Below the pieces are notes generated by a model. The model saw only the letters and a list, made by a program, of their open reading frames with translations. It did not search any database and was not told the DNA's origin. A program made the translations under genes and the position numbers. Shown in pieces: positions 52,266 to 54,642 of a stretch of 64,000 nt of DNA; position 1 is the first letter of the stretch; the number at the start of each line of letters is the position of its first letter. The stretch lies in NCBI GenBank assembly GCA_947473805.1, contig CANJGB010000018.1:1-64000 (forward strand). The letters are read 5' to 3'. Source of the stretch: Alphaproteobacteria bacterium. GTDB taxonomy: Bacteria; Pseudomonadota; Alphaproteobacteria; Ferrovibrionales; Ferrovibrionaceae.

Positions 52266-53078
52266 ATGTCAGCCTTGCGTTCACCGTTGATCAACGTGAT
52301 GACGGCGGCGGCGAAGAAGGCCGCGCGGGTGCTGATCCGCGACTTCGGCGAGGTCGAGCACCTGCAGGTCTCCCGAAAGGGCCCGGCCGATTTCGTCAGC
52401 GTTGCCGACGAGAAATCCGAGCGCACGCTGCGCGAGGAACTGGGCCGCGCGCGGCCGGACTACGGCTTCCGCCTGGAGGAAGGCGGCACCATCGCGTCAA
52501 AGGACGGCATCCACAACTGGGTGGTCGATCCGCTGGACGGCACCACCAACTTCCTGCACGGCCTGCCGCACTGGGCCATTTCCATCGGCCTCGAGAAGAA
52601 CGGCGAGCCGGTGGCCGGCGTGATCTACGACCCGATCAAGGACGAGATGTTTGTCGCCGAGAAGGGCCAGGGCGCCTATCTCAACTCGAAGCGCCTGCGC
52701 GTGTCGGGCCGGCGCAAGCTGGAGGAGACGGTGCTGGCGACCGGCATTCCGTTCCACGGCCTGCAGGGCCACAAGCGCTTCTCCGCCGAGCTCGACGCCA
52801 TCATGCCGAACGTGGCCGGCGTGCGCCGCTTCGGCGCCGCGGCGCTCGACCTCGCCTATGTAGCGGCGGGCCGCTTCGACGGCTTCTGGGAATGGAACCT
52901 GAAGCCGTGGGACATCTGCGCCGGCATCGTCATGGTGCGCGAGTCCGCCGGCCTGGTGACCGACCCGCATGGCGGCGACAAGCCGTACGAGACCGGCAAC
53001 GTGCTGGCCAGCACCATGGACATCCACCCCAAGGTGGCGCTGACGCTGCGCGCTGCGGCGAAGAACGCGGTGGAGTAA
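52266..53078 (+). CDS. Inositol monophosphatase family protein (SuhB-like)
   Basis: The 270-residue Mg-dependent phosphatase has metal ligands in VSVADEKSE, EEGG, WVVDPLDGTTNFLHG and WDICAGIVMVRESAG. It hydrolyses inositol-1-phosphate or related sugar phosphates. SuhB members also join rRNA antitermination complexes. The segment AALDLAYVAAGRFDGFWEWNLKPWD is typical. It ends the carbon cluster; the next 730 bp carry no gene. Confidence 0.93.
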   Translation: MSALRSPLINVMTAAAKKAARVLIRDFGEVEHLQVSRKGPADFVSVADEKSERTLREELGRARPDYGFRLEEGGTIASKDGIHNWVVDPLDGTTNFLHGLPHWAISIGLEKNGEPVAGVIYDPIKDEMFVAEKGQGAYLNSKRLRVSGRRKLEETVLATGIPFHGLQGHKRFSAELDAIMPNVAGVRRFGAAALDLAYVAAGRFDGFWEWNLKPWDICAGIVMVRESAGLVTDPHGGDKPYETGNVLASTMDIHPKVALTLRAAAKNAVE

Positions 53079-53231: not shown

Positions 53232-53306
53232 CCCCCTGACGCCCCCGCCGGGGCGCCAGTACAGCCACCTAAACCAGTTCAAAACCGCTGAAATCGCCGC
53301 GCCGGG

Positions 53307-53411
53307 GTGAGTTTCGAGTGCGTTTGGGTGAGTTTGGAGTGCGCTTTGGTGCGTTTGAGTGGCGGTTAGGTGAGTTTGAGTGGTGGTTCAGTGAGTTTCG
53401 GTGCCTTCAAC
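53307..53411. repeat. Five-copy 21-bp tandem repeat, G/T-rich strand
   Basis: Five consecutive 21-bp units begin at 53307, 53328, 53349, 53370 and 53391. Each is a variant of GTGAGTTTGGAGTG plus a 7-nt tail such as CGTTTGG. The + strand is overwhelmingly G and T with very little C. The unit is a multiple of three, so one frame gives a 7-residue repeat (RLGEFGV-like), but no ribosome-binding site or family supports a gene. Copies are degenerate, so it is not a recent expansion. Confidence 0.85.
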
Positions 53412-53757
53412 CACCAACCTACGGGTCCTCTAAAAGTCCCAAGCCCAAACCGGGCATGTATGCCCATGTCCGGATTTTTCAATGCAACCCCGGCGTTCAA
53501 TTTTTCTAGAGTGGCAAATCAACTCTCCTGAGAAGGCTTTTTATTTCTGGAAATTCTAACAGGCCAATATCCACTTTGAAAAATCCGTCCGGTGCATTCG
53601 GCTGAGCACACCATTTAGAACCGAATCCAGAAATCGACCGTCAAACGACTTAAACACCCGCCGCGTATGCATGCATGGATGAGTGCCGTAGCTTTTCTTG
53701 AGGTGCGGCGTAAGTGAATGCTTCGTCGTCTGGCTCAAGATTCGCTTTCCTGCTGAA

Positions 53758-53813
53758 GTACCAGTTGAGGGGCGCGATGTTGGAGTCCTGCTTCTTCAAC
53801 GAAAGGGACGTTC
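53758..53813 (-). pseudogene. Degraded fragment of a Bug receptor gene
   Basis: Over about 55 bp this sequence matches the Bug gene at 55902-56885 (around 56118-56172) at roughly three bases in four, starting with the identical GTACCAGTTGAGGG. In the minus sense one frame gives NVPFVEEAG and another gives NIAPLNWY, the two halves of the family motif around DVPSLKEQGTDIAALNWY. An indel therefore breaks it. It is a relic of a fourth Bug copy in this cluster. Confidence 0.65.
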
Positions 53814-54642
53814 AGGCCTCGCCGATGGTTTCGCCGTTCGTCACGCGCTGAAGGAAGCGCAGCACCACCTTCGCGCATTCGTCCGGGTTGTCCCAGGTGA
53901 TGTTGCCGGCGGCCTCGATGCCGTGCAGTTCGCAGGCCGGAATCGTGCGCGCCATCATCTGCTGCTCGGCGACGTCGAACTGGCCCTGCTCGGCGTACAG
54001 CAGGAGCGTCGGCGCGGCGATGCGCGGGAGGAGCGGCGTGATGTCCATGGTCGAGGCCATGCGCATCAGCCCGGCCAGCACATGGGCCGGCACGCGGCCC
54101 ATGCGTTCCATGAACAGTTCGTTCTGCAGCGGGATGCGTGAGGTATAGAGCGGGGCGGCGGTGCGGGCGTAGAGCCAGGTGCCCATGGCCATCAGCGCCG
54201 AGATGCCATCTGGATAGCCATCGCGCAGGAAGCGGCCTTGCGCCTTGGCCGGCACGAAGGCCGGCGTGCCGACGCCGGTGAGGCTGCGCACGCGCGCGGG
54301 GTGATGGGCGGCGAAGTGAATCGCCATGATGCCGCCGCCGGAGGTGCCGACGAGATGCACTTTCTCCAGCCCCAGCGCATCGAGCAAAGCCAGCGTGTCG
54401 TTCGCGAGTGTGTCGAGCGTGTAGGTGTAGCCGAGCGGCGGCGCGGTGGAGCGGCCGAGGCCGCGCCGGTCGGGCCGGATGACACGATAGTGGCGCGCCA
54501 GCGTGGGCACCCAGGCGCGATATTCGTCGCTGTCGCCGGACAGGTGGGCGAGCAGCACCACCGTCTCGCGCGGACGCCAGGGATCGGTGAAGTCGTCGTC
54601 CTCGTAGTGGAGGTCGGCGCCGTCGACATGGACGACCGGCAT
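53812..54642 (-). CDS. Alpha/beta hydrolase
   Basis: The 276-residue cytoplasmic hydrolase has LAHLSGDSDEYRAW (oxyanion), RPDRRGLGRST and the nucleophile elbow VGTSGGGIMAIHFAA (Ser). A cap region with MGRVPAHVLAGLMRM and LLLYAEQGQFDVAEQQM (acid region) follow. The final His region is less clear: ELHGIEAAGNITWDNPDE has no standard GHxxH. GGGAGGAAAAGC upstream sets the start at 54642. It diverges from a Bug receptor gene and probably acts on the same group of substrates. Confidence 0.85.
   Translation of the reverse strand: MPVVHVDGADLHYEDDDFTDPWRPRETVVLLAHLSGDSDEYRAWVPTLARHYRVIRPDRRGLGRSTAPPLGYTYTLDTLANDTLALLDALGLEKVHLVGTSGGGIMAIHFAAHHPARVRSLTGVGTPAFVPAKAQGRFLRDGYPDGISALMAMGTWLYARTAAPLYTSRIPLQNELFMERMGRVPAHVLAGLMRMASTMDITPLLPRIAAPTLLLYAEQGQFDVAEQQMMARTIPACELHGIEAAGNITWDNPDECAKVVLRFLQRVTNGETIGEA

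Follow-up and report, generated by a model that had tools for sequence, protein, structure and literature searches.

The question raised by this locus is whether a short, G/T-rich tandem repeat in the window, the 64,000-nucleotide stretch of DNA that was analysed, is a local curiosity or one copy of a more widespread element. Analysis of the periodicity reveals five 21-bp units at positions 53296–53400, with a lag-21 identity of 62/84 as compared with a mean of 27.7 and a maximum of 44 in 10,000 mononucleotide shuffles, while the best lag-21 stretch in the rest of the 64 kb reaches 44/84. The same block heads the 15 rows returned by TRF for the window (53305–53398, period 21, 4.5 copies, 83% matches, score 96). 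Read on the C/A strand, the units are, in order, CGAAACTCACTGAACCACCAC, TCAAACTCACCTAACCGCCAC, TCAAACGCACCAAAGCGCACT, CCAAACTCACCCAAACGCACT and CGAAACTCACCCCGGCGCGGC. A previous sequence-only reading had recognised the five-unit, 21-bp tandem repeat correctly but had placed it at 53307–53411, about 10 bp too far to the right: this interval lacks ~10 bases at the start of the array, and its last residues, 53401–53411 (GTGCCTTCAAC), fit the unit poorly. Nor does the description of the block as consisting of G and T only hold, since base counts over 53296–53400 are G 47, T 35, C 13 and A 10, or 78% G+T; an equal G+T content is reached by 12 of 63,896 overlapping sliding windows (the block's own neighbours counted), an equal A+C content by none. 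The array is located between the stop codons of a SuhB-type gene (53078, + strand) and an alpha/beta hydrolase gene (53812, - strand), and the features of the region are collected in Table 1. The place had been called a gene-free scar; it is indeed noncoding, but it corresponds to the intergenic region between two convergent genes and not to a scar.

Table 1. Position of the array and of the surrounding features in the window.
Feature	Position	Strand	Remarks
Inositol monophosphatase family (SuhB-type) gene	52266..53078	+	PF00459, 5.9e-63; stop 217 bp from the array and facing it
Tandem array, five 21-bp units	53296..53400	-	TRF and lag identity
Leader-position stretch	53401..53552	-	Best boxA-like site 5 mismatches; match to relatives' leader z 0.9
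Terminator-like hairpin and T run	53450..53473	+	For transcripts that leave the SuhB-type gene and cross the array
Sigma-70-like promoter towards the array	53553..53582	-	TTCAAA-N16-TAGAAT, TG before the second hexamer; consensus match only
Alpha/beta hydrolase gene	53812..54642	-	PF00561, 4.5e-26; convergent, promoter-side neighbour

The home assembly (G000; 58 contigs, 3.31 Mb) was searched for further copies, which gave nine places at first, that of the window included, and more later. Twelve arrays of 4–6 units are in register and share one consensus, CGAAACTCACCNAARCGCNNY on the C/A strand. R1, a sequence-only model built from these twelve, identified a thirteenth array on contig C29 (E 3.1e-14), and two more R1 matches in this genome (E 0.46 and 0.93) are taken as chance; the window array, itself among the training copies of R1, scores E 1.3e-19. 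With a step finder that permitted 20–22 and 41–43 bp only, the units follow each other at 21 bp throughout in 11 of the 13 arrays, a single 22-bp step being present in each of those on C37 and C29. Within the unit there are two A-rich cores 10 and 11 bp apart, that is 10.5 bp on average. A DNA search for a similar unit in plasmids and a pattern scan of viral contigs returned nothing, and the pattern scan of GTDB contigs gave six single matches, none with a flanking unit on either side. Likewise, the array found no match among the Rfam covariance models when 12 loci were scanned at E<=0.1 (the sole match being a tRNA elsewhere in locus L002), and no pertinent description of such a combination of repeat, promoter and boxA was found in open-licence papers, in agreement with the earlier statement that no described element has this unit.

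Looking for the unit across the genome and its relatives, as the sequence-only reading had proposed, thus led to thirteen home arrays and to analogous arrays in two other genera, which is at odds with a single local curiosity. By DNA similarity none of 30 relatives matches the home repeat. R1, on the other hand, matches two of the order's 18 genomes, the home genome and, from a different genus, G003 (E 8e-4), the latter match being a 20-bp array, CGAAACTGGCTCAAACAGGA, directly 5' of the uppP/BacA gene (PF02673). Used as a query, this uppP array yields 8 places in G003, 21 in its congener G012 and 2 in G004, from a third genus, as well as single matches in G013 and G014 that cover just the gene end of the query. 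The relatives' arrays (28 loci read) are made of ~10-bp half-units; the steps between these, conditioned on a finder that permitted 9–13 and 20–23 bp only, are of 10 bp (205), 11 bp (40) and 12 bp (9), with 15 others. Because steps of 10 and 20 bp hold no 7-residue frame, the 7-residue in-frame pattern of the window array, already suspected to be accidental, can be considered as such. A second model, R2, built on the relatives' element, matches 10 of 385 genomes class-wide; within the family these are G003 and G004 and not the home genome (G012 was not drawn), and the matches in the eight genomes outside the family are decamer or other repeats, or chance. R2 finds nothing at E<=1 in the 13 home loci and nothing in G000. 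Since R2 misses the home loci, the link between genera rests on the R1 match in G003, on four leader matches described below and on the common layout. A six-fold AAC pattern at 10 bp occurs 57 times in G003 (0 with the reversed control); no other genome among the 385 has more than 7 occurrences, and the home genome has none. G003 contains in addition a second type of array, CGAACCGCYA at 10 bp (L153, L174, L177), one of which stands at cmk, where G012 carries the first type. Judged by neighbouring genes, five of the eight G003 sites are common to G012, which argues for long-lived copies, and in three orthologous G003/G012 pairs promoter core and leader can be aligned and the arrays differ in steps of unit size.

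The relatives' elements have the following layout on the C/A strand: a promoter with TTATTCCTA at -10, ~62–79 bp, a boxA-type leader resembling that of rRNA operons and usually located ~57–89 bp before the array, and ~70–130 bp of tandem units with a period of 10 or 20/21 bp, close to one and two turns of the helix; the array often stops near the stop codon of the adjacent gene. The promoter core TTATTCCTA is present upstream with at most one mismatch at 17 of the 28 relatives' loci and, as a raw count, at 5 of the 13 home loci; only in L125 and L126 was a TTG hexamer seen by eye, 17 bp ahead of TATTAT. The dyad GAACN4GTTC, which resembles an operator or a 5' hairpin, occurs at 17 of the 20 relatives' loci printed, and in all 17 of one set of relatives' loci it stands just 3' of the -10. 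The leader, ~75 bp from GCTSTTGGACATCGTGGAT to AAATCAATGNCTTGGCAC, is boxA-like and conserved across 19 aligned relatives' copies, its core in G003 and G012 being commonly GCTGTTGGACAT, which differs from boxA by two mismatches in its centre. At home, the motif GCTCTTTGACAT, which by its sequence is boxA, is found with 0–2 mismatches upstream of 6 of the 13 arrays (73–234 bp before the array, a looser spacing), the window's being one of the seven without it; the background is 0.23% of 3,000 random 240-bp stretches of the window, for a motif chosen after the loci were seen. On this count, and with the exact match at C50, the array family as a whole can be said to carry a boxA sequence of the rRNA-leader type. 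The C50 site is identical to the boxA preceding 16S rRNA in Sphingobium and Rhodobacter, where the same 12-mer precedes the 16S match by 212 and 233 bp; the other four alphaproteobacterial rRNA leaders examined (two Azospirillum, Bosea, Ensifer) differ from it at 2–3 positions, and the boxA of the E. coli rrnB leader is GCTCTTTAACAA. No rRNA genes were found in the 12 home contigs scanned. Four home leaders (C29, C57, C13 and C50) match those of the relatives better than any of 300 shuffles does; the nine others, that of the window included, do not. Two further readings of these regions were rejected. An RNA structure is not apparent, as the leader alignment has four pairs with no change on both sides and the array folds are ordinary on either strand (z-scores -1.8 to +1.6). 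A coding leader, with LLDIVDKKIN.. in one frame in the relatives, has frames ending at different stops and no clear third-position signal.

The window's own copy has a promoter-like site and no recognisable boxA, its best boxA-like site being at background level; it is probably decayed, and its leader stretch looks so. The promoter-like site is situated 153 bp ahead of the array, as two overlapping sites where 0.2 are expected. As regards the R-loops that such a strand skew was said to favour, the transcript expected from promoter and boxA would be the C/A strand, which is G-poor, although a G-rich array RNA would come by read-through from the SuhB-type gene; the one terminator-like hairpin found for this direction, against a mean of 1.2 in shuffles, is not significant alone. 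SuhB is a component of the rRNA boxA antitermination complex, and the presence of a SuhB-type gene beside the window's array is probably a coincidence.

Comparison of a single site between species gives insight into what is conserved. In a survey of 18 genomes, two of them without a cmk match, an array is present 5' of cmk (cytidylate kinase, PF02224) in five of the nine genomes with a cmk match in genus g4, that of G003 and G012. These are G003, G011, G012, G013 and G014; the other four genomes of the genus lack it, and none was found 5' of cmk in seven genomes of other genera, home included. All five arrays have lag matches above all 200 shuffles and are phased at 10 or 20/21 bp, and their units are CGAACCGCYA in G003, the 21-bp GATCGAACTGGCTTCCAACGG in G011, AACNGG at 10 bp in G012, a 21-bp type in G013 and CGGATTGGCTCGCGTTGGCC in G014. 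We count these as at least four types because R2 relates G011 with G012, and G014 to them only weakly. Over 47 arrays the best W/S period is 9.8–10.8 in 46, whereas the strongest alphabet is W/S in 23, RY in 15 and KM in 9. W/S periodicity is a signature of bendability, and a reading of the arrays as bendable DNA was rejected, for the period is conserved yet W/S is dominant in those 23 only. As far as the sequences tell, the common property of the arrays is their spacing and not their composition.

We therefore give roughly even chances to the following explanation: the array would belong to one copy of an interspersed noncoding unit that is driven by a promoter and led by boxA, and in which the array is kept for its helical spacing. 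The 13 home copies of this unit would have counterparts, built from other repeat sequences, in at least one further genus (G003, G012) and, more weakly, in a third (G004). Copies, layout, positions, period and unit turnover are established; transcription, antitermination and a role of the array as DNA are what we infer from them. RNA polymerase would start at the promoter, the NusB/S10 antitermination machinery would be loaded on it at boxA, and the array would be transcribed as part of a ~250-nt RNA. The promoter, the boxA and the absence of a common reading frame suggest that this transcription unit is untranslated, and the 10–10.5-bp phasing kept through replacement of the sequence points to the face of the DNA helix; taken together, they lead to a boxA-led noncoding unit ending in a phased DNA platform. 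The array would work mainly through the helix, repeated sites on the same face forming a platform at gene ends for a phased protein or a wrapped complex, with a landing site for gyrase or a nucleoid protein as our favourite. Taken alone, this platform step is rather doubtful. Only tentatively, with somewhat better prospects than that step, do we propose a new class of element consisting of scattered promoter and boxA units with a helix-phased array, whose period is kept and whose sequence is replaced by species at the same sites; it might be a transcription-coupled station for DNA topology or protein loading, the unit co-evolving with a binding protein.

The position of the arrays relative to genes bears on two other explanations. 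At home the array-side stop codon faces the array in 9 of the 11 loci with a called gene (the exceptions being C12 and C19; C36 and C57, without a gene call on that side, were left out), a BIME-2-like placement, extragenic and at gene 3' ends; the array ends within 30 bp of that stop in 7 of the 11. In the relatives the stop faces the array in 18 of 28 loci, within 24 bp in 16, and the array lies between converging genes at 14 of these 28 loci and at 4 of the 13 home loci. Such a placement, together with 10–10.5-bp phasing across ~105 bp, is what a BIME-2-like gyrase-wrapping site would have, phased DNA loading gyrase at gene ends where transcription drives positive supercoils. PMC6379681 describes an E. 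coli gyrase motif with a phased ~10-bp variation in G/C and an enrichment of gyrase sites both in BIME-2 and downstream of operons with high transcription; gyrase wrapping and DNA deformability are treated in a preprint (PMC12393610). However, PMC6379681 also finds the BIME-2 signal as independent of transcription, W/S periodicity is not dominant in half of the arrays and boxA is left unexplained, so that we hold this explanation to be unlikely. The short distances from the stops would equally fit an element that belongs to the array-side gene and is read on the G/T strand, in its 3'-UTR or for termination, as would terminator-like hairpins on that strand of the leader, found at 2 of 13 home loci (mean 0.3 and maximum 2 in shuffles) and at 7 of 28 relatives' loci (mean 1.1 and maximum 4 in shuffles). 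Against it, the array at the accA site common to G003 and G012 comes after what appears by eye to be an intrinsic terminator, some arrays stand 5' of genes (uppP, cmk), and the promoter and boxA on the opposite strand would have no explanation; we consider it less probable than a gyrase site. Terminators beyond the array in the C/A direction show no excess over chance (home 0/13, relatives 1/28).

The dispersed copies could also stem from a nonautonomous mobile element, as its ends or what is left of it, with tandem transposase-binding sites spread as a MITE-like unit. Tn7- and IS21-type ends contain multiple tandem transposase-binding repeats, the many copies share a leader and an internal architecture, their presence among species is patchy, and by eye an IS-like sequence stands at the array edge on C57. 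This sequence begins directly at the edge, near the contig end (C57:1–126, L061), and the IS may have cut that copy. The stretches read beside istA (C45) and istB (C49) are without such repeats, the sharing of sites between G003 and G012 indicates long-lived copies, and a promoter with boxA is unexpected in a MITE end, which leaves this explanation as improbable as the gyrase site. Species-specific units and unit-sized differences between orthologues are, on the other hand, what a neutral minisatellite spread by recombination and slippage would produce, but neither the near-exact phase across scattered copies, nor the promoter and leader common to them, nor the retention of the cmk site with a changed unit is expected of it; its probability appears slightly below that of a 3'-UTR element. 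That the array is part of a repetitive protein is very improbable indeed: the C12 array is open and falls in the C-terminal tail of a protein predicted at 259 aa, but this product has no Pfam match and the relatives' steps are of 10 and 20 bp.

As regards known systems, the boxA-led unit with a phased array resembles an rRNA operon leader in that a promoter and boxA GCTCTTTGACAT precede untranslated DNA; it differs in having a ~105-bp tandem array in place of 16S rRNA, in its 13 scattered copies and in a boxA recognisable in not quite half of them. IS21- and Tn7-type ends likewise carry tandem sites of about 20 bp on one side of a unit, whereas here the stretches read beside the home istA and istB lack the repeats and no transposon body was seen. 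REP/BIME-2 elements, too, are candidate gyrase sites interspersed outside genes, often at the 3' ends of these, but the present units are direct, tandem and phased instead of palindromic, have their own promoter and boxA, and are species-specific. A promoter and boxA ahead of an array of direct repeats is known for CRISPR (PMC7862264, citing Stringer et al.); the units described here are contiguous, 21 bp from start to start and without spacers, and the copies are scattered. If our explanation is true, antitermination of the rRNA/CRISPR type would serve a third kind of untranslated unit, and the arrays would be a natural case of selection apparently acting on helical spacing and not on sequence. 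Since the unit differs by species while the sites persist, the partner, be it a protein, gyrase or a copying process, should be findable by comparing species with different units.

Some minor observations can be added. IS21 ends were considered and rejected, as C45:10500–14493 and C49:1–3000 contain no NAAACT cores at 20–22 bp spacing (C45 stops inside istB); there is a weak istB-like match on C37. The home genome has a SAM_alpha riboswitch at C54:4374–4453 (L221). In several relatives' loci GAACN4GTTC is followed by a second dyad, e.g. GCATACCTTGGTATGC in L114. Boxes of the form GTWCN7GTTC, which we take to be LexA-like, are found 134–164 bp before L103, L109, L120 and L130 (G003/G012) and 363 bp before L121; the arrays concerned are at uppP (both species), at cmk and at one or two further sites. 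These boxes are not general among the arrays, and none is present within 250 bp before any home array. Decamer tandem repeats exist outside the family, in other families of the class (L136, L137, L134 and L138, with TCTCAACCTG, TCAGTTAGGG, AATCCCGTTG and GGTCGGTTCC, respectively). boxA within two mismatches is absent, on either strand, from five decamer arrays of other families, and in L136 promoter-like sequence stands immediately ahead of the array.
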